From Pantoea coffeiphila (GTDB lineage Bacteria; Pseudomonadota; Gammaproteobacteria; Enterobacterales; Enterobacteriaceae), in contig NZ_JAFBFW010000002.1 of assembly GCF_016909495.1 (NCBI RefSeq), positions 310,001 through 374,000 of the forward strand: a stretch of 64,000 nucleotides of DNA. The letters are read 5' to 3'. Below the pieces are notes generated by a model. That model was not told the DNA's origin and ran no database searches. It worked only from the letters and a program-made list of their open reading frames with translations. Below are positions 11,563 through 42,823 of the stretch, piece after piece. The translations under genes and the position numbers were made by a program. Position 1 is the first letter of the stretch. Each line of letters starts with the position of its first letter.

Positions 11563-11606
11563 ACTGTTCCTGCCTGAAACGGGGCAGGCAATCCTGCCCC
11601 CAATCC

Positions 11607-15978: not shown

Positions 15979-17430
15979 ATGGGCGTAGTAGCAGAAGAAA
16001 ATATTACTGCTTCAAATAATAATAGCCTTACCAGCAATAAAAATTACTGGACCGTACAAGATGTAGAAAAAGCCACGAAGGGCAGCTGGGTTATTCCCCC
16101 GGCAGAAGGCTGGACCGCAACCGGCGTCTCTATTTTCGCTCCCGCTTTGCAGCCCGGAAATATGGCAATTATCCGCACCGAAGATGATAAAACCGGCCTG
16201 CTGGCCAGCGTGGCTTTACGACTTTCTCCTCCGCCCTCCTGCCTGATCACCACCGAACCGGACAAAATTCTGTCGGACAGTATCCCATTGCTTAAGGTTG
16301 CCGATAATACCGACGCTGTTCTTGCTATGGGCCGCTACGCCCGCGATAAGATGAAAGGCCGGGTGCTGGGCATCACCGGCAGCGCCGGTAAAACCACCTG
16401 TGTAGCCATGGTCGCCGATGCGCTTTCAGCCTGGGGGCCAACCTGCAAGAGTAATAATAACGCTAACCTGCCGCGCGGCGTGGCGTGGAATATCGCCTCC
16501 ATGCCGTGGGACAGCGCCCATATCGTGCTGGAAATGGCCATTGGCAGAATGGCGGTCAGCTCGCGCATGGTACGCCCGGAAGTCGCAATTTTTACCAATA
16601 TTCAGCCCGCCCACCTCGGTGAAAACACCACAGTCCACGATGTTGCCCTGACCAAAAGCGCCATCTTTGTCGGCATGGCTCCCGGCGGCGTGGCGATTTT
16701 AAACCGCGATATGCTGGAGTGGGAAACGGTCAGCCAGGCGGCCGAAGCGAAGCAGCAGAATATTGTTAACTACGGTACGCATCCCGACTGTCAGTACCGT
16801 CTGGTTGAATATGACGCGCAGAAGCAGCAGGTTACCGCGCAGATTGGCGACCGCACCCTGCACTACACGCTGGCGGCGGGCGGAAAGCATATGGCACTGA
16901 ACAGCCTGGCGACGCTGGCCGCGGTGGAAGCGCTGGGCTATCCGCTGGAACCGGCCATTGAGAAGATCGGGCAATTTGCCGCCCTGGCCGGGCGCGGTGA
17001 GGAAAAACAGGTCACTGTTAACGGCCTGCCGCTGACCCTGATCGATGATGCCTATAACGCCAATCCAGGCTCGATGCAGGCAGCCATTGAGCGCCTGAGC
17101 GGCCAGAGCTGTAGCGGGCGCCGTATTGCCGTACTGGGTGAAATGGCCGAGCTGGGTCCCGGCTCGGAGAGCTATCATACCGAACTGGCACCGCTGCTGA
17201 ACGCCAGCCAGATCGACCAGATCTTCCTGGCAGGATCGAGCTATAAACACTGCTGGGAACAGCTGGATGAAGGGAAAAAAGGGGCGTGGGTTGATGCGCC
17301 GGACGACCTGAAACCGCTGCTGCTGGAGGCACTACAGGCCAATGATACGGTGCTGTTGAAGGGCTCAAACAGCACCAAAGTTCATCAGTTGGTGAGTTGG
17401 ATAGACCAGATGCAGGATAAAGCAGGCTAA
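15979..17430 (+). CDS. MurF-like Mur ligase paralogue
   Basis: This 483-residue protein has the three-domain Mur ligase fold. The N-terminal part (30-115) resembles the UDP-sugar-binding domain but lacks the usual DSR motif. The central ATPase domain has the P-loop GITGSAGKTT (about residue 133) and FTNIQPAHLGE. LTKSAIF carries the Lys that is carbamylated in MurF. The C-terminal domain has DDAYNANPGSMQAAI, the MurF hallmark. It is not in the dcw cell-division cluster, so it is a second, specialised MurF-type amide ligase, perhaps joining an amino acid or dipeptide to a non-UDP-MurNAc substrate. It has its own GGAGG site and no operon partner. Confidence 0.8.
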   Translation: MGVVAEENITASNNNSLTSNKNYWTVQDVEKATKGSWVIPPAEGWTATGVSIFAPALQPGNMAIIRTEDDKTGLLASVALRLSPPPSCLITTEPDKILSDSIPLLKVADNTDAVLAMGRYARDKMKGRVLGITGSAGKTTCVAMVADALSAWGPTCKSNNNANLPRGVAWNIASMPWDSAHIVLEMAIGRMAVSSRMVRPEVAIFTNIQPAHLGENTTVHDVALTKSAIFVGMAPGGVAILNRDMLEWETVSQAAEAKQQNIVNYGTHPDCQYRLVEYDAQKQQVTAQIGDRTLHYTLAAGGKHMALNSLATLAAVEALGYPLEPAIEKIGQFAALAGRGEEKQVTVNGLPLTLIDDAYNANPGSMQAAIERLSGQSCSGRRIAVLGEMAELGPGSESYHTELAPLLNASQIDQIFLAGSSYKHCWEQLDEGKKGAWVDAPDDLKPLLLEALQANDTVLLKGSNSTKVHQLVSWIDQMQDKAG

Positions 17431-24990: not shown

Positions 24991-27900
24991 ATGAATAACA
25001 TAGCTGTAACCGTAAAGGACGGCGGAGCAACCTCCAGCGTATCAGCTGATCAGGTTAATCTGACCGCGCCTAGCGTAGTAAAGCTACAACTGGAGCGCAG
25101 CGAAATCGCTGCTACAACACGCTCCGGGAATGATTTGATCGTTACGCTACATTCTGGCGAAAAAGTCGTACTCCAGAATTTCTTTGTGGCTGATGCAGAG
25201 GGCCACACAAGTGATTTAGTCCTGGAAGATAGTCAGGGCGCGCTGTGGTGGGTGCAAGATCCCGCCACTGGTTTCCATTTCGAATCTATTGCCGACATCG
25301 ACGGCTTATTGCTGGGCGGTGCGGAATCTAACTATGCAGCCGGGCTGGCATTTGCTGGCGCCGGACTGCTTGGTATAGGTGCAATGTTCCTGGGCGAAAG
25401 CGACGATCACAACAACAGTGATGACAGTGATGCTGACGCCGATGCCGATGCCGACGCCGATGCGGACGCCGATGCGGACGCCGATGCGGATGCGGATGCG
25501 GATGCGGATGCGGATGCCGATGCCGATGCCGATGCCGATGCCGATGCTGATGCTGATGCTGATGCCGATGCTGATGCGGATGCCGATGCGGATGCCGATG
25601 CGGATGCCGATGCGGATGCGGATGCGGATGCGGATGCTGATGCTGATGCGGATGCTGACGCAGATGCGGATGCTGACGCCGATGCCGACGCCGATGCGGA
25701 TGCCGACGCCGATGCGGATGCCGACGCCGATGCGGATGCCGACGCCGATGCGGATGCGGATGCCGATGCCGATGCCGACGCCGACGCCGACGCCGATGCG
25801 GATGCCGACGCCGATGCGGACGCCGATGCCGATGCGGACGCCGATGCGGATGCGGATGCGGATGCCGATGCCGATGCGGATGCGGACGCGGATGCCGACG
25901 CCGATGCGGATGCGGATGCGGATGCGGATGCCGACGCGGATGCTGATGCAGACGCGGATGCCGACGCCGACGCTGATGCCGATGCGGATGCGGATGCCGA
26001 TGCGGACGCGGATGCCGATGCTGATGCCGACGCTGATGCCGATGCGGATGCGGATGCGGATGCTGATGCCGATGCCGATGCCGATGCTGACGCCGATGCG
26101 GATGCGGACGCGGACGCCGATGCGGATGCCGATGCCGACGCGGATGCGGATGCCGATGCGGACGCGGATGCCGACGCCGATGCGGATGCCGACGCCGATG
26201 CGGATGCGGATGCCGATGCCGACGCCGACGCCGATGCGGATGCCGATGCTGACGCCGATGCCGATGCGGATGCCGACGCCGATGCCGACGCCGATGCGGA
26301 TGCGGATGCCGATGCCGATGCGGATGCCGATGCCGATGCGGACGCCGATGCGGATGCCGATGCTGACGCGGATGCCGATGCCGATGCCGACGCCGATGCC
26401 GATGCCGATGCCGATGCGGATGCCGACGCCGATGCTGATGCCGACGCCGACGCCGATGCGGATGCCGATGCGGATGCCGATGCCGATGCCGATGCGGATG
26501 CGGATGCGGATGCCGACGCGGATGCGGATGCGGATGCGGATGCGGATGCGGACGCCGATGCGGATGCCGATGCCGATGCGGACGCCGATGCCGATGCGGA
26601 CGCGGATGCCGATGCCGATGCCGATGCCGATGCTGATGCTGATGCTGATGCGGATGCGGATGCAGATGCCGATGCGGATGCTGATGCCGACGCGGATGCG
26701 GATGCAGATGCGGATGCGGATGCTGACGCCGATGCGGACGCTGATGCGGATGCCGATGCCGATGCTGACGCCGATGCGGATGCCGACGCCGATGCGGATG
26801 CCGATGCGGATGCCGACGCGGATGCTGATGCGGATGCGGATGCGGATGCGGACGCGGATGCCGATGCTGATGCCGACGCTGATGCCGACGCTGATGCCGA
26901 TGCGGATGCTGATGCCGACGCCGACGCCGATGCCGATGCCGACGCCGATGCGGACGCTGATGCCGATGCGGATGCTGACGCCGATGCCGATGCCGATGCG
27001 GATGCCGATGCGGACGCCGATGCCGATGCTGACGCCGATGCGGATGCCGATGCGGATGCGGACGCCGACGCCGATGCGGATGCCGATGCGGACGCGGATG
27101 CGGATGCCGACGCTGATGCCGATGCCGATGCTGACGCGGATGCGGATGCGGATGCTGATGCCGACGCGGATGCTGATGCGGATGCCGATGCCGATGCGGA
27201 TGCCGACGCCGATGCTGATGCGGACGCCGATGCGGATGCCGATGCCGACGCGGATGCGGATGCCGATGCCGACGCGGATGCGGATGCCGATGCGGATGCC
27301 GATGCGGATGCCGACGCGGATGCTGATGCGGATGCTGATGCGGATGCGGATGCGGATGCGGACGCCGATGCCGACGCCGATGCCGATGCCGATGCCGATG
27401 CTGACGCCGATGCGGATGCCGACGCCGATGCGGATGCCGACGCCGATGCCGACGCCGATGCGGATGCGGATGCCGATGCCGATGCTGATGCCGATGCCGA
27501 CGCGGATGCCGATGCGGATGCCGACGCCGATGCGGATGCCGACGCGGATGCGGATGCCGACGCCGATGCGGATGCGGATGCTGACGCCGATGCCGATGCC
27601 GATGCCGACGCCGATGCGGATGCCGACGCCGATGCGGATGCCGATGCGGACGCCGATGCGGATGCAGATGCTGACGCCGATGCCGATGCCGATGCCGATG
27701 CCGATGCCGATGCGGATGCCGATGCGGATGCTGACGCCGATGCGGATGCGGATGCTGACGCCGATGCGGATGCTGATGCGGATGCTGATGCCGACGCCGA
27801 TGCGGATGCCGATGCGGACGCGGATGCCGATGCTGATGCCGACGCTGATGCCGATGCGGATGCTGATGCCGATGCTGATGCCGATGCGGACGCCGATGCC

Positions 27901-30900
27901 GACGCCGATGCGGACGCTGATGCGGATGCCGATGCCGATGCCGATGCTGACGCCGATGCGGATGCCGACGCCGATGCGGATGCCGATGCGGATGCCGACG
28001 CGGATGCCGACGCGGATGCTGATGCGGATGCGGATGCGGACGCGGATGCCGATGCTGATGCCGACGCTGATGCCGATGCCGATGCCGATGCCGATGCGGA
28101 TGCTGATGCCGACGCGGATGCGGATGCAGATGCGGATGCGGATGCTGACGCTGATGCGGATGCCGATGCCGATGCTGACGCCGATGCGGATGCCGATGCC
28201 GATGCCGATGCCGATGCCGACGCCGACGCCGATGCGGATGCCGATGCGGATGCGGATGCGGATGCGGATGCCGATGCCGATGCTGACGCCGATGCCGATG
28301 CGGATGCGGATGCCGACGCCGATGCGGATGCCGATGCGGATGCTGATGCGGATGCGGATGCCGACGCCGACGCCGATGCGGATGCCGACGCCGATGCCGA
28401 TGCCGATGCCGATGCTGATGCCGATGCTGACGCGGATGCGGATGCGGATGCGGATGCCGATGCCGATGCCGATGCTGACGCCGATGCGGATGCCGATGCG
28501 GATGCGGATGCGGATGCGGATGCCGACGCCGATGCGGATGCCGACGCCGACGCCGACGCCGACGCTGATGCCGATGCGGATGCGGATGCCGATGCCGATG
28601 CGGATGCGGATGCGGATGCCGATGCGGATGCCGATGCGGACGCCGATGCGGATGCGGATGCCGATGCCGATGCCGATGCGGATGCGGACGCTGATGCGGA
28701 TGCCGATGCCGATGCGGACGCTGATGCCGATGCTGATGCCGACGCCGATGCGGATGCCGACGCCGATGCGGACGCCGATGCCGATGCGGACGCGGACGCC
28801 GATGCTGACGCCGATGCCGATGCGGATGCGGATGCCGATGCCGATGCCGATGCCGATGCCGATGCCGATGCGGATGCTGACGCCGATGCGGATGCTGACG
28901 CGGATGCCGATGCGGATGCGGATGCGGACGCCGATGCCGATGCCGATGCCGATGCCGATGCCGATGCCGATGCTGACGCCGATGCTGACGCCGATGCGGA
29001 TGCGGATGCGGACGCTGATGCAGATGCGGATGCCGATGCGGATGCCGATGCGGACGCCGATGCGGATGCCGATGCCGATGCGGATGCCGACGCCGATGCT
29101 GACGCCGATGCGGATGCTGATGCCGATGCCGATGCCGATGCTGACGCGGATGCGGATGCAGATGCCGATGCTGACGCCGATGCGGATGCGGATGCCGATG
29201 CCGATGCGGATGCCGACGCCGATGCGGATGCCGATGCGGATGCCGATGCGGATGCCGATGCTGATGCGGATGCCGATGCCGATGCGGATGCCGATGCGGA
29301 TGCTGACGCCGATGCGGACGCCGATGCGGATGCCGATGCGGATGCTGATGCCGATGCCGATGCCGACGCGGATGCAGACGCGGATGCCGATGCTGACGCC
29401 GATGCCGATGCGGATGCGGATGCCGACGCTGATGCCGATGCCGATGCCGATGCCGATGCGGATGCTGACGCCGATGCGGACGCCGATGCGGATGCCGATG
29501 CGGATGCGGATGCCGACGCTGATGCCGATGCCGATGCCGATGCCGATGCCGATGCGGATGCCGATGCGGATGCTGACGCCGATGCGGACGCCGACGCCGA
29601 TGCGGATGCCGATGCCGATGCCGATGCCGATGCGGATGCGGATGCGGATGCCGATGCCGATGCCGATGCCGATGCTGACGCCGATGCCGATGCCGATGCG
29701 GATGCGGATGCGGATGCCGATGCGGACGCGGATGCCGATGCTGACGCCGATGCCGATGCTGACGCCGATGCCGATGCCGATGCGGATGCCGACGCGGATG
29801 CGGATGCCGACGCGGATGCGGATGCCGACGCGGATGCGGACGCGGATGCGGATGCCGATGCGGATGCCGATGCGGATGCTGATGCTGATGCGGATGCCGA
29901 TGCCGACGCCGATGCGGACGCTGACGTTGATGCACCTGACGCACCGGAAGGTCTCGTTGTTAACGCAGGCGGCCTGACCGTAAGCGGTACGGGTGAACCT
30001 GGCTCTGCTGTTACCGTCTATGACGCTAACAACAATGTGATCAGCGTTCCGGGCACCGTGGTTGACGAAGACGGCAACTTCACCGTGACTCTGACTACAC
30101 CTCAGACTAATGGCGAAACCCTGACCGTTACCCTGACCGATGAAGCCGGTAACGAATCACAGCCTGGCACCGTTGAAGCAGACGACACCACACCTCCGGA
30201 TCAGGTTGACGAGCTGAACGTGGCGGAAGACGGCCTGAGCATCAGTGGTACTGGCGAACCGGGTGCGGCAATTACCGTACGCGATGCCGATGGCAACGTG
30301 ATCAGCGTTCCGGGTGCTGTGGTGGGCGAGGACGGTAACTTCACCGTATCCCTGACTTCACCTCAGACCAACGGCGAAACCCTCTCCGTGACCCAGACCG
30401 ACGAAGCAGGTAATCCGTCCGAACCGGCCACCGTTGAAGCGGGCGATACCACGCCTCCGGCGCAGGTTGACGCTCTTGAAGTAGCGGAAGACGGCCTGAG
30501 CATCACGGGTACCGGCGAACCGGGTGCCTCCATCACCGTACGCGATGCTGATGGCAACGTGATCAGTGCACCGGGCGCTGTGGTGGGCGAAGACGGTAAC
30601 TTCACCGTGAACCTGACTTCACCTCAGACCAACGGCGAAACCCTCTCCGTAACCCAGACCGATGAAGCGGGTAACCCGTCCGAACCGGCAACCGTTGAAG
30701 CGGGTGACACCACACCTCCGGCACAGGTTGACGCTCTTGAAGTGGCGGAAGATGGCCTGAGCATCACCGGTACCGGTGAACCGGGTGCCTCTATCACCGT
30801 TCGTGATGCTGATGGCAACATTATCAGCCTGCCGGGCGCCGTGGTAGGCGAAGACGGTAACTTCACTGTGAATCTGAGTATTCCTCAGACCAACGGCGAA

Positions 30901-33900
30901 ACCCTCTCCGTGACCCAGACCGATGAAGCGGGTAACCCTTCCGAACCGGCAACGGTTGACGCGGGTGATACCACGCCTCCGGCACAGGTTGACGCTCTTG
31001 AAGTGGCGGAAGATGGCCTGAGCATCACCGGTACCGGCGAACCGGGAGCTTCCATCATCGTGCGCGATGCTGACGGCAACGTCATCAGCCTCCCGGGTGC
31101 TGTGGTGGGCGAAGACGGTAACTTCACCGTGAATCTGAGCACGCCTCAGACCAACGGCGAAACCCTCTCCGTGACCCAGACCGATGAAGCGGGCAACCCG
31201 TCTGAACCGGCAACGGTTGACGCGGGCGATACCACGCCTCCGGCACAGGTTGACGGTCTGAGTGTGTCCGGTGACGGCCTGACTATTAGCGGTACAGGTG
31301 AACCAGGTGCCACCATCACCGTTCGCGATGCTGACGGCAACATTATCAGCCTGCCGGGCGCTGTAGTGGGCGAAAATGGCAGCTTCTCTGTGAGTCTGGG
31401 TTCGCCTCAGACCAACGGCGAAACCCTGTCCGTGACCCAGACCGATGAAGCGGGCAACCCGTCCGAACCGGCAACGGTTGAAGCGGGCGATAGCACGCCT
31501 CCGGCACAGGTTGACGCTCTTGAAGTGGCGGAAGATGGACTGAGCATTAGCGGTACCGGTGAACCGGGAGCTTCTATCATCGTTCGTGATGCTGACGGCA
31601 ACATTATCAGCCTCCCAGGCGCTGTAGTAGGCGAAGACGGCAACTTCACCGTGAATCTGAGCACGCCTCAGACCAACGGCGAAACCCTGTCCGTGACCCA
31701 GACCGATGAAGCGGGCAACCCATCCGAACCAGCCACCGTTGAAGCGGGCGATACCACGCCTCCGGCACAGGTTGACGCTCTTGAAGTCGCGGAAAATGGC
31801 CTGAGCATCAGCGGTACCGGCGAACCGGGTGCCTCCATCACCGTTCGTGATGCTGATGGTAATCTGCTCAGCCTGCCGGGTGCTGTGGTTGGCGAAGACG
31901 GTAACTTCACCGTACTGCTGAACGCACCACAGACTAACGGTCAGACCCTGTCTGTGATCCAGACCGATGAAGCGGGCAACCCGTCTGAGCCGGCAACGGT
32001 TGACGCGGGCGATACCACGCCTCCGGCGCAGGTTGGCGCTCTTGAAGTGGCGGAAGACGGCCTGAGCATCACCGGTACCGGTGAACCGGGTGCCTCCATC
32101 ACCGTTCGCGATGCTAACAATAACGTCATCAGCCTCCCGGGTGCGGTAGTGGGCGAAGACGGTAACTTCACCGTGACTCTGAGCACGCCTCAGACCAACG
32201 GCGAAACCCTCTCCGTCACCCAGACCGATGAAGCGGGCAACCCGTCCGAACCGGCAACGGTTGACGCGGGTGATACCACGCCTCCGGCGCAGGTTGACGC
32301 TCTTGAAGTGGCGGAAGACGGCCTGAGCATCACCGGTACGGGTGAACCGGGTGCCTCCATCATCGTTCGCGATGCTAACAATAACGTGATTAGCGTAGCG
32401 GGTGCTGTAGTGGGCGAAGACGGTAACTTCACCGTAAATCTGACATCTGCACAGACTAACGGCCAGACACTGACCGTCATCCAGACCGATGAAGCGGGTA
32501 ACCCGTCCGAGCCGGCCACCGTTGATGCGGGCGATACCACGCCACCAATCGCGCCAACGGGTCTGAGTATCACTGAGGATGGTCTGACGATTACCGGTAC
32601 CGGCGAACCGGGTGCCTCCATCACCGTACGCGATGCTAACAATAACGTGATTAGCGTAGCGGGTGCGGTTGTTGGGGAAAACGGTAGCTTTACCGTCACG
32701 CTGTCTTCACCTCAGACCAACGGCCAGCCGCTGACCGTGCTGCAGACCGATGAAGCGGGCAACCCATCGCCAACTGCACCGATCGTCGCTCACGACTCAA
32801 CGCCACCGGATACACCAACCGCGCTGTCAATCAATGCGGCAGGTACGGTGCTGACGGGTACCGGTGAGCCTGGCTCAACGGTGACGGTGAAAGATGTTAA
32901 CGGCAATACCATCAGCCCGGCGAACGTGAAAGTTGGAGAAAACGGTACCTTCACCGTGAATCTGACCACAGCGCAAACCAACGGCACGCAGCTGTCGGTA
33001 ACACTGACTGATGCCGCGAATAACCCATCACAAGTTGGTCATGTCAACGGAGCGGTTCTCGTTTCCGCACATGCCGACCTGGATCAGGTTAACTTCGGAA
33101 CAACATCGTCAACCGTTACCAGCCCAACTACCATCGCACCAGCAAGTGGTTCGGCGGTTCTGAGTGTGGGATTACCGGCACTGCTCGACCTTACTCTGTT
33201 GGGCACTAACCCGCACCTGAGCTTCTCCGTGGGTGCAGGCGATAGCCGTACAATCGGCGTGACCGGTTCGGTTACGGGTGCTCAGCTAGCTTCCACAGTG
33301 AGTGCGGTACTCTACGTACAAAACGCTGCAGGAAACTATGTCAGGGTCGAAAACCCTCACTCCCTGTTCACCACCGTCTTGGCTCTTGGCGGTACAAGGA
33401 GCGGTTCAACCACCTTCACCGTGGCTAACTCGGGTAACTACATCGTCGTGCTGCAGTCTACGGGTGCAAGTGTAGGAACAACGAACGGCCTGAGCGTGAC
33501 AAGCGATACCACGACGTCAACCGTGACTCAGTCGGCGATTGCGGACGGTAACCTGCTTGAGAATGATACCAGCGCAGCTAACGGTAGCATTCCAACTGGT
33601 GCCCATGTGACCACCGTTAACGGTACAACGCTGCTGGCATCGGGTTACACCTCCATTACCACTACATATGGGGTACTGCAGGTTAACCAGGCGGGTGACT
33701 ACATCTTCACGCTGAACTCCGGCCTGAAAGTCACGTCTCTGCCTCCAAATGTTACCTACACCTATCAGATTGTCGACCATCACGGCGTCACGTCCGGCGC
33801 TAACCTGGTGATCACACTGCACAATGGTGTGGCAACGTTCAGCTCGCTGATGGCACTGGATTCACTTGACGGTCTGGACGGTGATACGTCTGTGCACGGC

Positions 33901-34548
33901 AACGTTCACGATGGCGATAACATCAATCATTCCGGCGCAACGCTGGGCATTGATGGCATCAGCCTGAGTGAAACCGGTACGGAAACCACCACGGTCGACG
34001 GTCTGTACGGAACGCTGACTATCAACGCTGACGGTTCCTACAGTTATGCACTTAACGAAGGAATTACAGCGGCTGATATCACCAGCAAAGAGGTGTTCTC
34101 TTACACCCTGACCGACACCGATGGAACGGTAACGCTGAATTCACTGACCATTGATTTGGCTCCAACAATCAACGGCACCAGTGAAGACGACTCTGTCTCT
34201 GGCAGTGCCTACAACGACACCTTCACGCTGGGTGACGGAGCAGACACGGTGGTTTACCACCTGCTGGATCAAGAGGATTCAACCGGCGGCAACGGTGCGG
34301 ATACCTGGACCGACTTCACCGTCGGCGAAGACCACATCGATGTCAGTGAACTGCTGCAGGGCTGGGACGGTTCGGCCGCCACCATCGGGAACTATGTCTC
34401 GGTAGAACATACCGACGACGGCAATACCGTGGTGTCGATTGACCGTGACGGTGCAGGAACGCAGTACGACTCAACCGAACTGATTACTCTCGAAAATGTG
34501 ACCGTTACCCTGGACGAATTGCTGCAACAGCACAATACTTCCGTGTAA
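24991..34548 (+). CDS. Giant BapA-like type I-secreted adhesin with a 749-unit Asp-Ala stalk
   Basis: This 3185-residue protein is built as follows. Residues 1-110 form a beta-rich BapA-prefix-like domain. A Gly/Ala-rich hydrophobic segment (115-135, [14 protein letters not shown]) is next, then an acidic linker. Residues 147-1644 are pure Asp-Ala. Twelve Ig-like (BapA/Big_6-type) repeats of 87 residues (about 1650-2690) carry the core GTGEPG...TVRDA...GNFTV. The last 495 residues contain VCBS-like beta domains and a type I secretion C-terminal target with GGNGAD (3099-3104) and an acidic Asp/Leu-rich tail. BapA- and LapA-like proteins are exported by TolC/HlyB/HlyD systems and mediate biofilm formation; matching genes follow. 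The ATG has GGGAG 8 bases upstream. The extreme DA tract is the main oddity. Confidence 0.93.
25429..29922 (+). repeat. 4494-bp GAYGCN array encoding (Asp-Ala)749
   Basis: Every codon pair reads GAT/GAC followed by GCC/GCG/GCT/GCA, with no other residue from 25429 to 29922. The next pair is Asp-Val, then Asp-Ala-Pro. GCC and GCG dominate, GCT is moderate, and GCA occurs only about nine times. Perfect tandem units at DNA level are short, for example an 18-bp unit repeated four times at 25681-25752, but longer dispersed duplications exist (26671-26886 compared with 27901-28194). Indels of any number of 6-bp units keep the frame. Confidence 0.97.
29938..33060 (+). repeat. Twelve tandem 261-bp (87-residue) Ig-like repeats
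   Basis: Repeat boundaries fall at 29938, 30199 and every 261 bp to 32809, the last unit being slightly short. Each unit starts after TTPP and contains GTGEPG, VRDA (or YDAN), [20 protein letters not shown] and TDEAGN. Units 3-5, 7, 9 and 10 are almost identical, while units 1, 11 and 12 have diverged, as expected for an array homogenised in its middle. Confidence 0.93.
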
Positions 34549-34571
34549 CTAATGTTTGAGGGATATTTCAG

Positions 34572-34589
34572 TGGCACAGGGATGTGCCA
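34572..34589 (+). promoter_or_regulatory. Hairpin 1 after the adhesin gene
   Basis: TGGCACA, a GGGA loop and TGTGCCA form a 7-bp stem 24 bases after the adhesin stop. It is followed by A residues rather than U residues, so it is not an intrinsic terminator. It could protect an mRNA 3' end. Confidence 0.45.
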
Positions 34590-34610
34590 AAAAATGTAAC
34601 GTTATTTACT

Positions 34611-34649
34611 AACGGGGGTAGTGCAGCCGAGGGCTGCCGCACCCCCGTT
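34611..34649 (+). terminator. Strong hairpin between adhesin and secretion genes
   Basis: AACGGGGGT...GTGCAGCC pairs with GGCTGC...ACCCCCGTT through about 17 base pairs with single-base bulges and a GAG loop. Only three U residues follow. It may act as a partial terminator or RNA-end stabiliser that sets adhesin mRNA above secretion-gene mRNA; this is an inference. Confidence 0.55.
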
Positions 34650-34766
34650 TCCTGTTACGGTTTGCCTGAAGGAGTACGCGGATTGTTAAATGTTACAACA
34701 GTAAAACCCCGCAGACGGGTGAAGCATGTAAGAGATCAGCAACAGCGAACAGGAAAAAGAATTTCT

Positions 34767-36200
34767 ATGATTCGTCGCGTAAAACGCAGTACGGCAGGCT
34801 TATTAATGCTGACCGGTGCTTTATTTCCACTGGCTCCGGCCCAGGCCGAAGAGCTGGATGAAGATTCCTCCTCGCGCATCAGCGCACAATATCTTGTTTC
34901 ACAACAGGAATTACCCAGTCTTAACGGTGAAATCACCGAACCCATTATCGAAAATAGCTCACAACCCCTGGATATCACCAAAGCGGTGCAGCGCGCGGTA
35001 CAGTGGCACCCCGCGATCAGTGAACAGGTGGGAAAGCTGTTTGAGCAGAACGAGCAGGTCAATTACGCCCGCTCCAAGTACTACCCGCAAATCAGCGGTG
35101 GAATGAACAACGGCATTACCAACACGTACAGTGGACACGGTTACAGCCCGTCGCTGGTGCTTTCGCTTTCACAGATGCTGTATGACTTCGGAAAAGTTGA
35201 CAGTTCGGTGCGTTCCGCGAATGCCGGCGTGGCACAACAGCAGGCTAAAGTATTGGTGAGCATCGATCAGGTCGCTCATGATACGGCCGCCGCACTCGTT
35301 CAGGTTCAGGGCTATCAGGAACTGGTTGCTATCGCGCAGGCGCAACTCGACTCGCTTAACACCATCGGTGGCCTGGCGCGTGAACGTAACGATCAGGGGG
35401 CCAGTTCCCTCTCCGATGTGGTACAGACCAACACCCGTATTGAAGGCGCACGCGCCACGCTGATGCAGTATCGCGCGAACCTTGACCGCTGGCGCGCAAC
35501 GCTGGCCACCTATCTTGGCTGGAAAGCCGTGAACCGCGTCAATAATGATTTCCCTCCAAAGCTGGGGAAAGCCTGTGAAGTTACCCAGGTTGACGATCGC
35601 TTAATACCTTCCGTGCTGGCGGCCTGGGCACAAGCCAATCAGGCACAGGCCCAGTTGGATTACGCCAATGCTCAGCGGATGCCGACCATCTCCCTGGAGC
35701 CGGAAGTCACTCACTACCTCAACGATCGCTATCCAAATAATCAGTCGCTGGATCGTACTCAGTACTCCGCCTATGTGCGGGTGCAGATGCCGCTGTATCA
35801 GGGCGGCGGTCTTGACGCGCAGCGCGCGGCGGCAGCACACACGCTGGAAGCCGCCAATGCGATGGTTCGCTCTGCCCGCCTGGATGCACGTCAGCAGCTC
35901 AGCGCTTCGCAGAATGAGTCGATGAGCCTCAGCACGACGCTGGCCATTCAGGCCCGTCAACAGGCACTCGGTGAAAAAACCCGCGAGCTGTATCAACAGC
36001 AGTATCTGCAGCTTGGCACCCGTCAGCTGCTCGACGTGCTGAACGCCGAGCAGGAAATTTATCAGTCCCGTTTTACCGAGCAGCAGACCATCGCCCAGCT
36101 GCGCACCCTGCAGCTGGACTGTCTGTACAGCACGGGGCATATCCGAAGTGCCTTTGCACTGGATAATCAGAAGATCCAGCAGGTGGAGATCCAACCATGA
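34767..36200 (+). CDS. TolC-family outer-membrane factor of the type I secretion system
   Basis: This 477-residue protein has a signal peptide (MIRRVKRSTAGLLMLTGALF, cleaved after PAQA) and the duplicated helical-hairpin pattern of outer-membrane efflux proteins: ALVQVQGYQELVAIAQAQLDSL, NDQGASSLSDVVQTNTRIEG, and near the end LGTRQLLDVLNAEQEIYQSR. It would form the trimeric outer-membrane channel for adhesin export. I chose the ATG at 34767 because it begins a standard signal peptide. A TTG at 34683 has a good GAAGGAG site and would add 28 basic residues, so the start is not fully settled. It overlaps the ABC gene by 4 bases. Confidence 0.9.
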   Translation: MIRRVKRSTAGLLMLTGALFPLAPAQAEELDEDSSSRISAQYLVSQQELPSLNGEITEPIIENSSQPLDITKAVQRAVQWHPAISEQVGKLFEQNEQVNYARSKYYPQISGGMNNGITNTYSGHGYSPSLVLSLSQMLYDFGKVDSSVRSANAGVAQQQAKVLVSIDQVAHDTAAALVQVQGYQELVAIAQAQLDSLNTIGGLARERNDQGASSLSDVVQTNTRIEGARATLMQYRANLDRWRATLATYLGWKAVNRVNNDFPPKLGKACEVTQVDDRLIPSVLAAWAQANQAQAQLDYANAQRMPTISLEPEVTHYLNDRYPNNQSLDRTQYSAYVRVQMPLYQGGGLDAQRAAAAHTLEAANAMVRSARLDARQQLSASQNESMSLSTTLAIQARQQALGEKTRELYQQQYLQLGTRQLLDVLNAEQEIYQSRFTEQQTIAQLRTLQLDCLYSTGHIRSAFALDNQKIQQVEIQP

Positions 36201-38395
36201 GTCAGCTGCACCAGGAACCTCTCGAACCCGATAACGGCGAGAATAATAATGAGAAAAGCCATCTTCACGACTGGGTGACTGCCATTGGACACATCGCCAG
36301 ACACTACCGTCTGGAATATTCCCCCGGCGGCCTGCAGGCTGCGGCCAGCTGGCAGATGGATAAACCCCTGGCTTCGGTGATCCAGAACCTCGGTCGCCAG
36401 GCCGGGCTGTCAGGGCGCTTGCTGAATGAAAAAGACAGTGAGATCTCTAACTGGCGGCTGCCGCTGGTGATCCAGCTGAAAGACGGCCAGGTGGGAATTA
36501 TCGAAAGCTATGACGGCCTGGACACCGTCGGCGTCAGTTTTATCAGCGATGCCCAGCTGGTGACCCAACTGCCGTTTTCCGAACTGCTGCCGGAAATCCG
36601 CCATATTGCCGCCTTCCGCCCGGTCGCTGTAGCAAAAGATATCCGTGCCGACCGCTATCTGGCCGATTACACGCCAAACTGGCTGCGCAACCTGGTACTG
36701 CGCGATATCCGCCCCTACTGGTATGTGATGCTGGCCTCGCTGATCATTAATATTATGGCGCTGTCCGGCATCGTTTTCTCGATGCAGGTGTATGACCGGG
36801 TGATCCCGGCGCAGTCTTACCCAACGCTGTATGTGCTGTTCGGCGGCGTGATGATTGCGATCCTGTTCTCATTTATTATGCGTATTGCGCGCGGGCATAT
36901 TACCGACCTGTTGGGAAAACGCGCCGATTTGCGCGTCTCAGACCGCGTATTTGGCCACGCGCTGCGCCTGCGTAACAGCGCGGTCCCCCGCTCTACCGGT
37001 AGTTTTATTTCCCAGGTGCGCGAGCTGGAGCAGGTACGCGAAATGGTCACCTCCAGCACCGTTTCCGCCATCGTCGATATGCCGTTCTTCCTGCTGTTTA
37101 TGGGCGTTCTGGTGGTGATTTCCCCGCATCTGGCGTGGATAGCCCCGGTCGCCACCATCCTGATGCTGGTTCCTGGTCTGTTACTGCAAAAGAAACTGGC
37201 CCGTCTGGCGCGTCAGTCCTCGCTGGAAACCACCCTGCGTAACGCCATTTTGGTAGAAAGCCTGCAGGGACTGGAAGATATCAAACTGATGCAGGCCGAG
37301 CAGCGCTTCCAGCAGCAGTGGAACAGCTACATTCAGATCACCGCGCAGTCCGGTTTAAAAACCCGCCGCCTGACCCAGGGGCTGATCAGCTGGGGGATGA
37401 CGGTACAGAATCTTGTCTATGCCACGGTAGTGATGATCGGTGCCCCGATGGTGATTGAGGGTGAAATTACCACCGGTGCTATCGTTGCGGCCTCAATGCT
37501 CTCTTCGCGCATGATTGCGCCGATGACCAGCCTGTGCGGCGTGCTGGCCCGCTGGCAGCAGGTCAAATCGGCGAAGGACGGTCTGGATAACATCATGCAG
37601 CTACCGGTGGAAAACGGCGGCGATGAAGCCCGCGTCCACTGCGCCACGCTGTATGGCGACTATCAGTTTAAATCCGCCGTGTTCCGCTACGACCTGGATT
37701 CCAATCAGATACCGCTGCGCGTAGCCAAGCTGGAGATTCGCCGCGGCGAGCGTATTGCGGTACTCGGCCGTAACGGGGCCGGTAAATCCACTTTCCTACA
37801 GGCGCTGGCCGGTGGGGTTGAGCTGGCTGAAGGTGAGCTGAGGTTAGATAACCTCAGCCTGCCGCATATCGACGTGGCCGATCTGCGCCGCAACGTCGGC
37901 CTGTTAACGCAGAACGCCCGCATGTTCCACGGTACGCTGCGCGACAATCTGACGATGGGTGCCCCTCATGCCCGCGACGAGGATATCTTTGCGGTGCTGG
38001 AAGTCTGCGGCGCGGCCGACTTTATCAAGCGCCTGCCGCTGGGGCTGGAACATAAAATTATGGAGGGCGGGCTGGGCCTTTCCGGTGGGCAACGTCAGTC
38101 CATTCTGCTGGCGCGTATGCTGCTGCGCGATCCCAATATTGTCCTGCTTGATGAACCCACCGCCTCTCTGGATGAACACACCGAACGTGACTTCCTGCAG
38201 CGCCTGAGCGGCTGGCTGGCCGGTCGTACGCTGATTATTGCCACCCACCGCGCCGCCGTGCTGGAGCTGGCCGAACGCGTGCTGGTGCTGAAAGATGGTG
38301 CGCTGGTAATGGATGCACCGAAGGATAAAGCAATGAATCGTGCCGAAGAGAAAAAACGCACTCAGGAGATCGGTGATGAAAGCAAATTTGCCTGA
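36197..38395 (+). CDS. Type I secretion ABC transporter (permease-ATPase, LapB/HlyB type)
   Basis: This 732-residue protein has an N-terminal C39-like domain (about 20-150) without a catalytic Cys, so it would bind substrate rather than cleave a leader. Six membrane spans (about 170-460) and an ATPase domain follow. Walker A is GRNGAGKST (about residue 523), the signature is LSGGQRQ (about 628) and Walker B is IVLLDEP (about 648), followed by the switch His in IIATHR. It powers export of the C-terminally tagged adhesin. The ATG overlaps the preceding stop (ATGA), showing translational coupling. Confidence 0.93.
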   Translation: MSQLHQEPLEPDNGENNNEKSHLHDWVTAIGHIARHYRLEYSPGGLQAAASWQMDKPLASVIQNLGRQAGLSGRLLNEKDSEISNWRLPLVIQLKDGQVGIIESYDGLDTVGVSFISDAQLVTQLPFSELLPEIRHIAAFRPVAVAKDIRADRYLADYTPNWLRNLVLRDIRPYWYVMLASLIINIMALSGIVFSMQVYDRVIPAQSYPTLYVLFGGVMIAILFSFIMRIARGHITDLLGKRADLRVSDRVFGHALRLRNSAVPRSTGSFISQVRELEQVREMVTSSTVSAIVDMPFFLLFMGVLVVISPHLAWIAPVATILMLVPGLLLQKKLARLARQSSLETTLRNAILVESLQGLEDIKLMQAEQRFQQQWNSYIQITAQSGLKTRRLTQGLISWGMTVQNLVYATVVMIGAPMVIEGEITTGAIVAASMLSSRMIAPMTSLCGVLARWQQVKSAKDGLDNIMQLPVENGGDEARVHCATLYGDYQFKSAVFRYDLDSNQIPLRVAKLEIRRGERIAVLGRNGAGKSTFLQALAGGVELAEGELRLDNLSLPHIDVADLRRNVGLLTQNARMFHGTLRDNLTMGAPHARDEDIFAVLEVCGAADFIKRLPLGLEHKIMEGGLGLSGGQRQSILLARMLLRDPNIVLLDEPTASLDEHTERDFLQRLSGWLAGRTLIIATHRAAVLELAERVLVLKDGALVMDAPKDKAMNRAEEKKRTQEIGDESKFA

Positions 38396-39632
38396 TCTGC
38401 CCGCCACGCTCGACGCGGCGCGCCTACCGGCTCCAACTTACAATGCCGCAGCCATTTCGCTGGCGGATGATGTTGATGGCATTCACAGCGATGAAGTCAA
38501 GCTCTCTGGTGCAACGCGGATTGTCTGGCTTTGCGGACTGATGCTGGCAGTGATCGGCGTCTGGGCGTGGTTTGGCACGCTGGACGAAGTGTCTAACGGT
38601 ACCGGTAAGGTGATCCCCAGCACCCGCGAACAGGTCCTGCAGTCACTGGACGGCGGTATTCTTGGCGGCCTGAACGTGCGTGAAGGTTCACGGGTTGAGG
38701 CAGGAGAAATTGTCGCCTGGATGGACCCGACGCGTTCACAGTCCAACGTCGGTGAAAGTGCGGCACGCTATCGCGCCTCGCTGGCCTCGGCTGCGCGTCT
38801 GACTGCCGAAGTGAACGATCTGCCGCTGACCTTCCCGGCGGACCTGGACAAATACACGGACCTGAAAGCCTCAGAGACACGCCTGTATAACACCCGCCGG
38901 GCACAGCTCAACGATTCTGAGTCGCGGATTTCCGAAGCGCTGGACCTGGTGAAACGCGAACTGCAAATCACCGAAAGGCTGGCTACCACCGGCGCGGCCA
39001 GTAACGTGGAAGTGCTGCGCCTGCGCCGTCAGAAAGCGGATCTCGACCTGAAAATGACCGACCTGCGCTCACAGTACTATGTGCAGGCGCGGGAAGAACT
39101 GTCGAAGGCCAACGCCGAAGTCGATACGCTTGCCGAGGTGATTAAAGGCCGCGCGGACTCCGTTGATCGCCTGACCGTCCGCTCGCCGGTACGCGGCATC
39201 GTCAAAAATATCAAAGTAAACACCATCGGCGGGGTTATCCCCCCTAACGGCGATCTGATGGAGATCGTACCGCTGGACGATCGCCTGCTGATCGAAGCCC
39301 GCCTGTCCCCGCGCGACATCGCCTTTATCCACCCCGGCCAGGATGCCCTGGTCAAGATCAGCGCCTATGACTATGCCATCTACGGCGGGCTGCACGGCGT
39401 GGTTGAGACGATTTCGCCGGATACCATCCAGGACGAAGTGAAACCCGAAATTTACTACTACCGCGTATTTATCCGCACGGATGTCGACTATTTGCAGAAT
39501 AAAAATGGCAAACACTTCTCCATTTCACCGGGAATGATCGCGTCGGTTGACATTAAAACCGGCGAGAAAACCGTTATGGATTACCTGTTTAAACCGTTTA
39601 ACCGCGTAAAAGAAGCGCTCAGAGAGCGTTAA
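38376..39632 (+). CDS. HlyD-family membrane fusion protein of the type I system
   Basis: This 418-residue adaptor has a cytoplasmic tail, one membrane span (about 47-67, VWLCGLMLAVIGVWAWF) and a split lipoyl domain (VIPSTREQVLQSLDGGILGG and VRSPVRGIVKNIKVNTIGG) flanking a long coiled coil. The HlyD/PrtE/LapC-type beta-barrel ends the protein. It bridges the inner-membrane ABC protein and the TolC-like channel. The ATG at 38376 has AGGAG 8 bases upstream and lies within the last 20 bases of the ABC gene; the reading from 38340 is rejected. The downstream glycosyltransferase gene starts 20 bases later. Confidence 0.93.
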   Translation: MKANLPDLPATLDAARLPAPTYNAAAISLADDVDGIHSDEVKLSGATRIVWLCGLMLAVIGVWAWFGTLDEVSNGTGKVIPSTREQVLQSLDGGILGGLNVREGSRVEAGEIVAWMDPTRSQSNVGESAARYRASLASAARLTAEVNDLPLTFPADLDKYTDLKASETRLYNTRRAQLNDSESRISEALDLVKRELQITERLATTGAASNVEVLRLRRQKADLDLKMTDLRSQYYVQAREELSKANAEVDTLAEVIKGRADSVDRLTVRSPVRGIVKNIKVNTIGGVIPPNGDLMEIVPLDDRLLIEARLSPRDIAFIHPGQDALVKISAYDYAIYGGLHGVVETISPDTIQDEVKPEIYYYRVFIRTDVDYLQNKNGKHFSISPGMIASVDIKTGEKTVMDYLFKPFNRVKEALRER

Positions 39633-39652
39633 TAGTCTCTGGAGGAGATGAG

Positions 39653-42600
39653 ATGTCATTAAGCAAATTCTTGCAGGCAGCCCGTATTTCTGCCGAAAGT
39701 GTGACGACCACAGCACTGCCGGAAGGCCATCCTGGCTGGGTACTCTTTTTCAGTCTCTGTCACGGTAATAAACGTGCGCATGTCCATATTGCCAGCGGCA
39801 ACAGTTTTGAACAGGCCTGGAGTGAAGGCGCGGAAGCGCTGCAAAAATGGAGTAAAAAGCAAAGCCGTAAGCCACTCTGGCTGCGGGTTGATGTGGTGGA
39901 TCAGGTCCGCGCGGTGAGCTGGGAAGATTTGCAGCGTGAATTCGGCAAAACCAAGCGTAACTACTTTGGCTGCGGGCTGTCGCTGGACAGTCAGTTTACC
40001 CTCGCCATGCTGCCTCAGGAGCTGTGCGCCAACGCCGTGCTGTACGAAGGCAATAAAAACCTGGCGACGCCGAACGTGATTAACCTGGCCAGCTATGGCC
40101 GCCAGCGTTTTGGCCAGCCGCTTCAGTGGCCGCAGCGTGATGATGAAACCATCTGGTGCTTTACCACCAGCGGCGTATTTACCGACGGCACGCAAACCCT
40201 GCCGCTGGAAAATCGCGGACTAAACGCGGGCTATCGCCGCATCGACAACTGGCCGGGCGAGGCACTGCCCCAGGTGATTGACAGTGCCACCAGCTTCCTG
40301 GCCGAACAGGTGAAATCCTCCGGTGAGTTTTACTACGGCTGGTTCCCCTGCTTTGACCGCCCTATCGACTCCTACAACGCGCTGCGCCACGCCAGTTCCA
40401 CCTATGCCCTGCTTGAAGGCTGGGAGAAAAGCCAGCAGCCGCAGCAGATGGAAGCCGTTGAGCGCTCGCTGCGCTACCTGACCGGCAAGCTGATCCACAC
40501 GCGCAAACTGCCGGACGGCAGCGATGCCGATTTCCTCGTGGATACGGGAAATGAGATCAAGCTGGGCGGTAACGCCGTCTGTATTCTGGCGATGGCGAAA
40601 TACACCGAACTGACCGGCGATGAGCGCTATCTGGCACAGATGGAACGGCTGGCAAACGGCATCGGCTTTATGCAGACCGATAAGAAGTCGTTTGTCCACG
40701 TGCTGAACTTCCCCAGCCTGTCGGTGAAGGCGGAACAGCGCATCATCTATTACGACGGTGAAGCGGCGTTTGCACTGATGCGGCTGTACGGCATTACGCG
40801 TAATCCGCGCTGGCTGGAGATCGTTGAGCGCGCGTTTGACTACTTTATTGAGAATAAGCACTGGCAGGCGCACGACCACTGGTTGAGCTACTGCGTTAAT
40901 GAACTGACGCTGTATCGCCCGGAAGAGCGCTATTTCAAGTTCGGGCTGGATAACGTGCGCGACTATCTCAATTTTGTGCTGACGCGTATCACTACTTTCC
41001 CAACGCTGCTTGAGCTGATGATGGCGGCGCAGAAAATGATCGTGCGGATGGCCGCCGACGAGCGCCACGCCCATCTGCTGTTTGACTTCGACCTGAATAA
41101 ATTCTACGAAGCGCTGGAGTTCCGCGCCCGCTACCTGCTGAACGGCTTCTTCTGGCCGGAACTGGCGATGTTCTTTAAAAACCCCGAGCGTATTGTTGGC
41201 AGCTTCTTTATCCGCCACCACAGCTTCCGAGTGAGGATCGATGATGTTGAACACTATCTGTCTGGCTATGTCGCCTACCATAACTACCTCCGTCAGCCAT
41301 CCCATGAACAGGCGGCCGCTGTGAAGGCCTCGGTAGCGGCTAAGGCCCTGGCCGCGCGCGGTGGCCCGCGCAAATCAGGCGATCCGCGCGTGCTGTTCCT
41401 GTGTGAAAACCTGCGCAACGTCGGTAACGGCATTGAAGTGGCGACACTGCAGCGCGCGAGACTGTTTAAAGAGTATCTTGGCGTGGTGCCGACCATCCTG
41501 ATTTCATCGTTTAACCCGGCGCTGGAAGAAACCACTGAAGCCTTCAAGGCGGCCGGTAAGCTGCCGGCAGAGACTCAAGTGATGAGCATTTATCAGTGGC
41601 TGTCGCCGCTCTGCGATAGCAAAAAACTCGCGCCGCTGGCGGCGATCCCGCAGGGCGTGCTGTTACGTTCAACGGGGGCGAAAGACGCGCCGCTGCGCGT
41701 GTTGCAGTATGCGCTGCCGGGGCGTGAAGGCGAGCTGAGCTTTGAAGATTATGTCGACAGCCGTCAGCGCATCGTTCTGCGCAAGCACTATACCCAGCGC
41801 CAGCAGAGCAGCCTGTTATCCAGCATTGAGGTCGGCCAGCCAAACGGTGAGAAACTCAGCTGGCGCAGCGATGCGGCGTTCGTTGCGGAAATGGCGATTA
41901 TGTGCCTCGATTCGCGCACCGAATGGCACTTTGTGGTCGATAAAACCCGTCCGTGGAGCGAATTTATCCGCCGCGCGCCGCATTTACAGTGCAACGGTAC
42001 GCTCACCTCACTGTTCCACTCCACCCATCTGTTAGCCGATGGCAAACTGAAAGCGGGCTATGCGCGCGTTCTCGACAGCGAGAAAAACATCGACCAGTTA
42101 GTCGTCTTAACGGATGGACAGCAGCAGGCATTGACCAACGGTGGTTTTGCCTCGCAGCGACTGCGCGTTATCCCAAACCATATTGATAATCCGCAGGCGA
42201 CAAAAAAAATCAGCAAGAAGGCCAGTAAAAATGTGCTCTATGTGGCCCGCTATGCCCCGGAAAAGCGTCACGACCTTCTTATTCGAGTATTTGAAAAAGT
42301 CCTGAAGGCCGTTCCTGATGCGCAGCTGCATACCTGGGGCGTTGGCCCACTGCGTGCTGGCCTGATTAAACAGGTACAGGACAAAGACCTGACGCAAAAT
42401 ATTCATATCAATGGCTTCTCTAACAATATCGAAGAGATTCATCGCGAGGCCTGCTGCGCGGTACTGTGTTCCGACCAGGAAGGGTTCTCACTCTCTGGCC
42501 TGGAAGCGCTGGCCTACAGTACGCCGCTGGTCAGCTTTGACGTCGATTACGGTCCGCGCAATCTGCTGAGCAATTTCAAGGCAGGCGTGCTGGTTGAAGA

Positions 42601-42823
42601 CGGTAACGAGCAGGCGCTGGCGGATACGTTGATCGATCTGCTCGAGCACCCCGGCAAATTGCGCACCATGCGCGGGGCAGCTGCACGCAGCGCGGCACGC
42701 TTTTTCACCCCGGTTGTGGCAGAGAAATGGCGGCAGTGGTGGGATGATATGCGCCAGCTGGCGGCCGAACGCGAACAGCAGGCGCTACCAGCCAGCCAGG
42801 AACGTGCCGCAATCGGCCAGTAA
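39653..42823 (+). CDS. Fused alpha/alpha-barrel-like and GT4 glycosyltransferase, adhesin-linked
   Basis: This 1056-residue cytoplasmic protein has three parts. Residues 1-215 are of unknown fold. Residues about 216-550 are helical with repeated aromatic-rich turns (FYYGWFPCFDRP, DTGNEIKLGGNAVCILAMAK, IIYYDGEAAFALMRLYG), typical of (alpha/alpha)6-barrel sugar epimerase or glycoside-processing domains. After a linker, residues 577-1040 form a GT-B glycosyltransferase with GNGIEVATLQRA, VLYVARYAPEKRHDLLI and the E-x7-E motif EGFSLSGLE. The GT insert (RQRIVLRKHYTQ...FHSTHLL...DQLVVLTDGQQ) resembles TarM/GtfA/SdgB-type enzymes. GGAGGAGATG precedes the start and hlyD ends 20 bases before. A role in adhesin glycosylation is inferred from linkage. 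Confidence 0.8.
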   Translation: MSLSKFLQAARISAESVTTTALPEGHPGWVLFFSLCHGNKRAHVHIASGNSFEQAWSEGAEALQKWSKKQSRKPLWLRVDVVDQVRAVSWEDLQREFGKTKRNYFGCGLSLDSQFTLAMLPQELCANAVLYEGNKNLATPNVINLASYGRQRFGQPLQWPQRDDETIWCFTTSGVFTDGTQTLPLENRGLNAGYRRIDNWPGEALPQVIDSATSFLAEQVKSSGEFYYGWFPCFDRPIDSYNALRHASSTYALLEGWEKSQQPQQMEAVERSLRYLTGKLIHTRKLPDGSDADFLVDTGNEIKLGGNAVCILAMAKYTELTGDERYLAQMERLANGIGFMQTDKKSFVHVLNFPSLSVKAEQRIIYYDGEAAFALMRLYGITRNPRWLEIVERAFDYFIENKHWQAHDHWLSYCVNELTLYRPEERYFKFGLDNVRDYLNFVLTRITTFPTLLELMMAAQKMIVRMAADERHAHLLFDFDLNKFYEALEFRARYLLNGFFWPELAMFFKNPERIVGSFFIRHHSFRVRIDDVEHYLSGYVAYHNYLRQPSHEQAAAVKASVAAKALAARGGPRKSGDPRVLFLCENLRNVGNGIEVATLQRARLFKEYLGVVPTILISSFNPALEETTEAFKAAGKLPAETQVMSIYQWLSPLCDSKKLAPLAAIPQGVLLRSTGAKDAPLRVLQYALPGREGELSFEDYVDSRQRIVLRKHYTQRQQSSLLSSIEVGQPNGEKLSWRSDAAFVAEMAIMCLDSRTEWHFVVDKTRPWSEFIRRAPHLQCNGTLTSLFHSTHLLADGKLKAGYARVLDSEKNIDQLVVLTDGQQQALTNGGFASQRLRVIPNHIDNPQATKKISKKASKNVLYVARYAPEKRHDLLIRVFEKVLKAVPDAQLHTWGVGPLRAGLIKQVQDKDLTQNIHINGFSNNIEEIHREACCAVLCSDQEGFSLSGLEALAYSTPLVSFDVDYGPRNLLSNFKAGVLVEDGNEQALADTLIDLLEHPGKLRTMRGAAARSAARFFTPVVAEKWRQWWDDMRQLAAEREQQALPASQERAAIGQ

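Follow-up and report, generated by a model that had tools for sequence, protein, structure and literature searches.

Stalks built of the dipeptides Ser-Asp (SD), Asp-Ala (DA) or Asp-Thr (DT) recur in bacterial adhesins, and in the literature searched (mostly open papers, no preprints) an enzyme has been assigned only to SD glycosylation. As far as the available parts of the sources go, glycosyltransferase genes lie beside sdr and sesJ genes (PMC3794999, PMC7029136, PMC8360574), and SdgB, which sugars the Ser of the SD chain, contacts its Asp through a basic tract of the insert domain (PMC8561734). BapA of Paracoccus denitrificans is a type I biofilm adhesin with 891 Asp-Ala repeats and adjoining secretion genes bapBCD; its predicted mass is 212 kDa, yet it runs at >300 kDa, and modification could not be ruled out by its authors (PMC5588039). 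In Bap of Acinetobacter baumannii, 38 residues of tandem DA repeats are inserted (PMC4647330). Here, a stretch of 64,000 nucleotides from Pantoea coffeiphila (contig NZ_JAFBFW010000002.1, positions 310,001 to 374,000), referred to as the window, was analysed for an operon that exports a giant DA-stalk adhesin. The operon probably includes a dedicated stalk-modifying enzyme, part of a modular machine whose substrates and chemistry we infer. An earlier note on this DNA had taken the glycosyltransferase behind the secretion genes, together with the DA stalk, as the unusual part; a DA-stalk type I adhesin with its exporter is already known from Paracoccus, as is the addition of sugars to SD stalks by SdgA/B.

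Results

Five open reading frames (ORFs) follow one another on the forward strand, as the earlier note had it. The first (24991..34548) encodes the adhesin of 3185 amino acids (aa), which has a BapA_N prefix domain (PF22783, 128.6 bits, cut-off 27), the stalk and tandem Ig-like repeats (12 Big_6 stretches); its C-terminal region is weakly BapA/Bap/LapF-like (NF045619, 120.9 bits, cut-off 180). Behind it lie the genes of a TolC-type outer membrane protein of type I secretion (34584..36200; TIGR01844, 297.6 bits, cut-off 225), a type I secretion permease/ATPase of the LssB type, i.e. the ATP-binding cassette (ABC) gene (36197..38395; TIGR03375, 752 bits, cut-off 693), and an HlyD-type adaptor (38340..39632; TIGR01843, 324.5 bits, cut-off 209). 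All three are above the curated model cut-offs and adjoin one another and the adhesin gene in the arrangement of a type I operon. The fifth ORF (39653-42823) encodes an enzyme of 1056 aa. The end of tolC overlaps the ABC gene by 4 bases, and the enzyme gene starts 20 bases after hlyD ends. The ABC/hlyD overlap is 20 bases from ATG 38376, the likely start of hlyD, and 56 bases from GTG 38340, so the overlaps and spacing noted earlier (4, 20 and 20 bases) are correct provided that hlyD starts at 38376. The tolC ORF opens with GTG; the true start may be a signal-peptide-like Met62 (about 34767), which would leave about 220 bases between adhesin gene and tolC. A scan of 34400-34900 gave neither promoter-like nor terminator-like matches.

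The stalk is exactly (DA)749 (residues 147-1644; 25429..29922, forward strand), which bears out the earlier count, and holds no Ser or Thr. It is coded by eight different hexamers, each Asp-Ala; synonymous change thus went on while the alternation stayed perfect, which argues against a simple recent expansion. The exact repeat number depends on a single assembly of 25 contigs. One DSD stands at residue 145, directly N-terminal to the stalk, and none within it, and the Ig-like repeat region holds 221 Ser/Thr in its 1056 residues. A large antisense ORF across the array was set aside as a by-product of the repeat.

The enzyme had been taken as one large glycosyltransferase, which holds for half of it only. 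Its glycosyltransferase domain (residues 577-1056; 41381..42823, forward strand) is SdgB/TarM-like; residues 577-1038 have the predicted SdgB/TarM fold, i.e. GT-B with a beta insert domain. R866, K871, E943 and E951 are identical in 14/14 aligned rows, the window included, and E943/E951 presumably form the EX7E motif of this half. In our own pairing R866 and K871 correspond to R329 and K334 of SdgB (positions from the available part of PMC8561734). On the NCBIfam SdgA and SdgB models the enzyme stays under the cut-off (153.5 and 116.2 bits against 800). Between three Erwinia this half is under purifying selection (ratio of nonsynonymous to synonymous substitution, dN/dS, 0.08-0.11), which with the intact catalytic residues counters the idea of a decayed glycosyltransferase.

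Residues 1-550 (39653..41302, forward strand) are a different domain of an unnamed, highly conserved family, here called GTN, whose proteins are annotated in database records as 'hypothetical protein' or 'poly(glycerol-phosphate) alpha-glucosyltransferase'. It is the better conserved half of the enzyme: across 50 rows 89 columns are invariant, many of them His, Glu, Asp or Arg. H246, H349, H403, H407, H409, H522, E301, E370 and E417 belong to these. Its residues 198-550 are predicted to form an (alpha/alpha)6 barrel resembling cellobiose 2-epimerase. The AGE epimerase family PF07221 matched GTN in just 1/50 rows (E 0.017), and phmmer and profile searches for a sequence relation to solved structures gave nothing credible. 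GTN as an integral part of the glycosyltransferase was ruled out, since it occurs alone or with other partners.

Among 392 genomes of the window's family, 35 matched when the whole enzyme was the query; GTN is present in 33 of them, and G119 and G355 match in the glycosyltransferase half only. A GTDB contig set yielded 94 confirmed relatives, from which 80 loci were retained. These, the window and six further genomes with a glycosyltransferase fusion, all picked for a contiguous adhesin region, made up a table of 87 rows. An array of at least 12 Asp-X (D-X) units, X being the residue that alternates with Asp, was present in the locus or its fetched extension in 69/87 of these Proteobacterial rows with GTN. 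GTN was also held by 54 records of a plasmid collection and by 3/5426 E. coli genomes, all plasmid-borne (by DNA similarity). Fourteen further loci were taken from these (13 of the plasmid records and one of the three E. coli plasmids) and searched for stalks of at least 6 units. A run of at least 12 D-X units was found in 13/14, Gram-positive loci accounting for nine (array in 9/9). The 14th, from A. baumannii, has a short stretch (14 residues, 7 units) upstream and GTN directly downstream; the adhesin gene upstream, which reads in pieces in that record, would be the Bap gene. Chance neighbourhood was dismissed on these two counts. The earlier note had tied the enzyme to this adhesin class and had asked whether it occurs mostly without the adhesin in relatives; the 69 of 87 loci in which the GTN half adjoins an Asp-X adhesin uphold the link.

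Gene orders differ among the Gram-positive loci: sdrF, GTN and then a convergent glycosyltransferase gene in Staphylococcus epidermidis; an SdrD_B adhesin, GTN and a Mur ligase in S. simulans; and a DA LPXTG protein followed by GTN in Listeria monocytogenes. In the order of an Aquamicrobium genome (G405), 1/199 genomes, G405 itself, holds GTN, which is thus sporadic there. LapG and LapD genes lie between GTN and adhesin in many enteric loci among L035-L065 and L095; none were seen in that place in Erwinia loci L032 and L033.

BapA_N, present in 156/392 family genomes, provided a control. Thirty loci were returned (8 with and 22 without GTN), 20 GTN-minus loci were picked further down the list, and stalks of at least 6 units were counted. 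A D-X stalk was found in 5/8 BapA_N loci of GTN genomes against 1/42 of GTN-minus ones (1/22 in the first set, 0/20 in the second; Fisher 1.5e-4), the control detecting only stalks near the N-terminus and one locus (L141) being cut short. The three stalk-less loci with GTN (G246, G158, G313) seemingly belong to the genomes of L095, L060 and L039, where the D-X adhesin is a different gene.

GTN has several partners. An SdgB-like glycosyltransferase may be fused C-terminally; a family 2 glycosyltransferase stands N-terminally in L044, L060 and L095; and a MurF-like ligase is found either by itself or together with domains of the PGA_cap and S11 peptidase types. In the Listeria and Atlantibacter loci GTN has no partner next door. 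The C-terminal partner in L078 and L076 weakly matches aspartyl/asparaginyl beta-hydroxylase; that of L078 adjoins a DA stalk and is possibly a third kind of Asp-directed module. In Variovorax loci L061, L062, L063 and L110 GTN is fused to PGA_cap and a Mur ligase.

For comparison of partner and stalk, rows were called Ser/Thr-rich when Ser and Thr made up at least 50% of X, and the 18 stalk-less rows were excluded. The stalk was Ser/Thr-rich in 15/18 rows with a glycosyltransferase against 1/51 without (Fisher 2.2e-11). Counted by genus, with genera taken from record titles, the figures were 11/13 against 0/20 (4e-7); without the six added genomes they were 9/12 against 1/51 rows (8.8e-8). 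Three rows have an Ala-rich stalk despite a glycosyltransferase, namely the window (0.1% Ser/Thr), Erwinia sp. JUb26 (5%) and Entomohabitans (15%), and all three carry the MurF-like ligase. The JUb26 adhesin (L155) reads as two ORFs in a stretch with 8 N, and the 41 Ser in the 828 units of its stalk all lie within the 233 units nearest the N-terminus.

In the window the MurF-like ligase gene (15979..17430, forward strand; 483 aa) lies between dld and an mscS-like gene, 7.5 kb upstream of the operon, so that the island is not as 'self-contained' as first described. The protein has Mur ligase middle and C domains and belongs with the ligases that accompany GTN elsewhere, whether as neighbouring genes or as fusions: identity is 59-60% with those next to GTN in Superficieibacter and 55% with the GTN-fused ligase of Agrobacterium. 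It stays under the MurF cut-offs (TIGR01143, 258.9 bits against 288.6; NF010693, 297.4 against 544), and the second Mur ligase of the genome (G000:C5:402840) is 29% identical to it. In 34 whole genomes searched, ligases of at least 50% identity were found in the window genome, JUb26, an Erwinia metagenome-assembled genome (MAG), Entomohabitans, L053, L055 and L057, the last three combining GTN, an Ala-rich stalk and the ligase. Sixteen Ser/Thr-rich genomes and four GTN-less Erwinia gave only matches of 29-32%, taken as ordinary MurF. The longer ligase of Kluyvera (L041) had relatives in 6/24 genomes and in 0 of 16 Ser/Thr-rich ones. Across the family the ligase (E up to 1e-60) occurs in 11/392 genomes, all 11 within the 33 that hold GTN (hypergeometric 2.7e-13). 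It was present in 46 of the 51 tested Ala-rich rows (53 in all; L056 and L058 were outside the count) against 0/16 Ser/Thr-rich ones (1.8e-11), and by genus in 19/22 against 0/11. Adjacency decided the ligase status of 41 Ala-rich rows and a whole-genome search that of the others; L038 was judged by G050, taken as the same MAG.

In 3/4 of the other Erwinia compared, about 80-210 bp separate dld from the mscS-like gene, the fourth giving no dld match; in the window genome the ligase gene stands between them. A gene which we take to be dedA-like is separated from the L,D-transpeptidase gene (ldt) by 0.24, 2.1, 3.0 and 9.1 kb in four other Erwinia; in the window genome the 20-kb operon lies between them and, judged from this comparison, is an insertion. 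Two separate insertions thus go together. In L218 (G353) 9.1 kb of other content lies between the dedA-like gene and ldt, and the site may be a hot spot.

Some further modules were seen. PGA_cap modules of L070 and L063 also score on MslH, a lasso peptide epimerase model, at values far below its cut-off, and L041 has a D-Ala-D-Ala carboxypeptidase-like module; with the MurF-like ligases these hint at D-amino acid chemistry. In the window a gene for a SUFU-domain protein (9481-10590, reverse strand) lies beside an mpaB/Lcp-type oxygenase gene (10696-11610).

Discussion

In the reading we favour, the adhesin would be synthesised in the cytosol and exported through its own type I system, and its alternating Asp-X stalk would be modified by a modular machine before or during export. 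GTN would be the constant part, which binds and/or alters the Asp-X chain, and an exchangeable partner would act according to X. Where X is Ser or Thr, the glycosyltransferase would add a sugar to it; where X is mostly Ala, the Mur-type ligase would act, probably forming amides on Asp carboxylates, since a DA stalk offers no other reactive side chains. The analogy is with cyanophycin synthetase, whose Mur-like domain adds Arg to Asp beta-carboxyls in an Asp polymer (PMC9427784, available part); the ligase may amidate the Asp of a DA stalk in a similar way. The window strain holds both modules, the GTN-fused glycosyltransferase and the ligase. By our own reading of their sequences, enzyme and ligase have no evident signal peptide; nucleotide sugars and ATP being cytosolic, modification before or during type I export seems likely. 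The earlier note had proposed such a modification of the exported adhesin. The tie between the enzyme and D-X adhesins supports that proposal; the pairing of a Ser-type glycosyltransferase with a stalk free of Ser does not.

Several observations weigh against this reading. No D-S-D acceptor occurs within the window stalk, unlike the Ser/Thr-rich stalks of the 15 glycosyltransferase-bearing rows, so the window's fused glycosyltransferase finds almost no Ser acceptor in the stalk; it may act on the single DSD that precedes the stalk, on the Ig-like repeats or on the stalks of sister strains. In G119, a GTN-minus Erwinia, the stalk is all DS, the adhesin reads in pieces, the secretion genes are 70% identical to those of the window, and the last gene of the operon encodes a stand-alone protein of 536 aa related (23%) to the glycosyltransferase half, which shows that a DS stalk with a glycosyltransferase manages without GTN. 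L049 is Ser-rich and has no glycosyltransferase in the locus; a YheC/D-like ATP-grasp gene (L049:8693-9751) stands divergent from GTN, where several relatives have the Mur ligase. The S. aureus plasmid locus L194 has 93 Ser to 40 Ala (70% Ser) and a Mur ligase annotation that is short, at 390 bp; its gene table, which is incomplete, lists no glycosyltransferase. Five of the 51 Ala-rich rows (L050, L078, L080, L105, L111) gave no clearly recognisable ligase, the L080 genome having an unclear 30% match at 1e-53. The rows are related by descent, and the genus counts soften this kinship only partly. No stalk was found in 18/87 rows with GTN: ten loci of <17 kb are truncated at contig ends, in L033 the sequence stops within the adhesin, L068 and L074 were read without an extension, that of L076 includes 5000 N, and four are the Variovorax loci L061-L063 and L110 (20-22 kb), without an Asp-X stalk within about 10 kb of GTN. 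In Variovorax either the adhesin lies elsewhere or GTN acts on another substrate.

The last of these possibilities would suit a system in which GTN, the Mur ligase, PGA_cap and S11 make a separate surface polymer or small molecule that is merely co-regulated with the adhesin. PGA_cap and Mur ligases do resemble genes of poly-gamma-glutamate synthesis. The association with D-X stalks spans type I and sortase adhesins, and the partner matches the stalk residue, so that we hold a separate product to be very improbable. It is also quite unlikely, if somewhat less so, that the GTN-glycosyltransferase sugars other parts of the adhesin and that the Asp-Ala stalk is a passive spacer. The Ser and Thr of the Ig-like repeats could serve as acceptors that the stalk lacks, and the glycosyltransferase is still under purifying selection; yet GTN accompanies D-X stalks with no glycosyltransferase beside it (the Listeria LPXTG protein, Sphingopyxis and Oceanimonas), and partner type tracks stalk composition. 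The same shortage of Ser might mean that the glycosyltransferase half is a relic in this Erwinia lineage, left when the stalk shifted from Asp-Ser to Asp-Ala. The Ser that remain in the JUb26 stalk, against none inside that of the window, are what such a shift would leave; the low dN/dS and the intact catalytic residues speak for an enzyme in use, and we consider a relic improbable.

A non-catalytic GTN, which would only dock or chaperone the acidic Asp-X chain on its way to export or to the partner enzyme, is the rival to be taken most seriously, although we think it unlikely. The binding of SD-repeat Asp by the SdgB basic tract (PMC8561734, available part) gives it a precedent, and GTN is common to loci whose partners vary. 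The conservation of GTN exceeds that of the glycosyltransferase half, as its invariant columns attest, its predicted barrel is of an enzyme type, and it stands partnerless in the Listeria and Atlantibacter loci, all of which fit a catalytic domain better.

The modular machine that we favour could be carried one step further, to a proposal that is tentative and, in our judgement, possible rather than probable: Gram-positive and Gram-negative Asp-X stalks would be substrates of one system, in which GTN alters the chain, for example by epimerising or isomerising its residues, a reaction that a barrel of epimerase type would permit, and the partners finish it by a chemistry fitted to X, the DA stalk becoming cyanophycin-like. 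If so, the DA stalk would be a branched polymer on a ribosomal protein, with amino acids ligated onto Asp side chains. Should the ligase act on the stalk, the Mur ligase fold would here serve a new purpose. More generally, the data suggest a modular, mostly undescribed chemical modification of protein stalks across many bacteria. They indicate a function for the GTN family and a possible reason why Asp-Ala arrays stay pure, and the constancy of GTN with X-matched partners across two envelope types makes stalk chemistry directly testable.

In the literature searched, no description was found of GTN as a stalk companion, of GTN fusions, of an adhesin-linked Mur ligase or of a rule linking partner module or ligase to the stalk. 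The L. monocytogenes DA protein is presumably Lmo1799 and the GTN gene lmo1798. In the annotated record a stand-alone GTN gene follows the DA LPXTG gene, with the same spacing in an unannotated record; the protein is sortase anchored, and the annotated record shows no glycosyltransferase or ligase beside it. Lmo1799 is an LPXTG protein whose 226 Ala-Asp repeats make a DA stalk as in the window (PMC8687577, available part). The presumed Acinetobacter Bap is, like the window adhesin, an Ig-like type I adhesin with DA units and GTN directly downstream, but its DA stretch is short (about 7 D-X units only) and its GTN just 37% identical. Cellobiose 2-epimerase and the AGE epimerases share the barrel with GTN, which has no sequence-family match to them and an extra N-terminal region of 197 residues. 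The M domain of cyanophycin synthetase is a Mur-type ligase acting on Asp beta-carboxylates (PMC9427784); its product is a free polymer and not a ribosomal stalk, so the likeness is one of analogy only. The available part of the Paracoccus BapA paper (PMC5588039) mentions no modifying enzyme, whereas the window has a probable one; the aberrant gel size of that BapA would suit a modifier. The nearest known enzymes are SdgA/SdgB and GtfC/D of Pls, which, in the available parts of the sources, share with the window the glycosyltransferase fold, the catalytic residues and a gene neighbouring the adhesin (PMC3794999, PMC8561734, PMC7029136). The window differs from SdgA/SdgB in the fusion of its glycosyltransferase to GTN, in the Gram-negative type I operon around it and in an Asp-Ala stalk without Ser.

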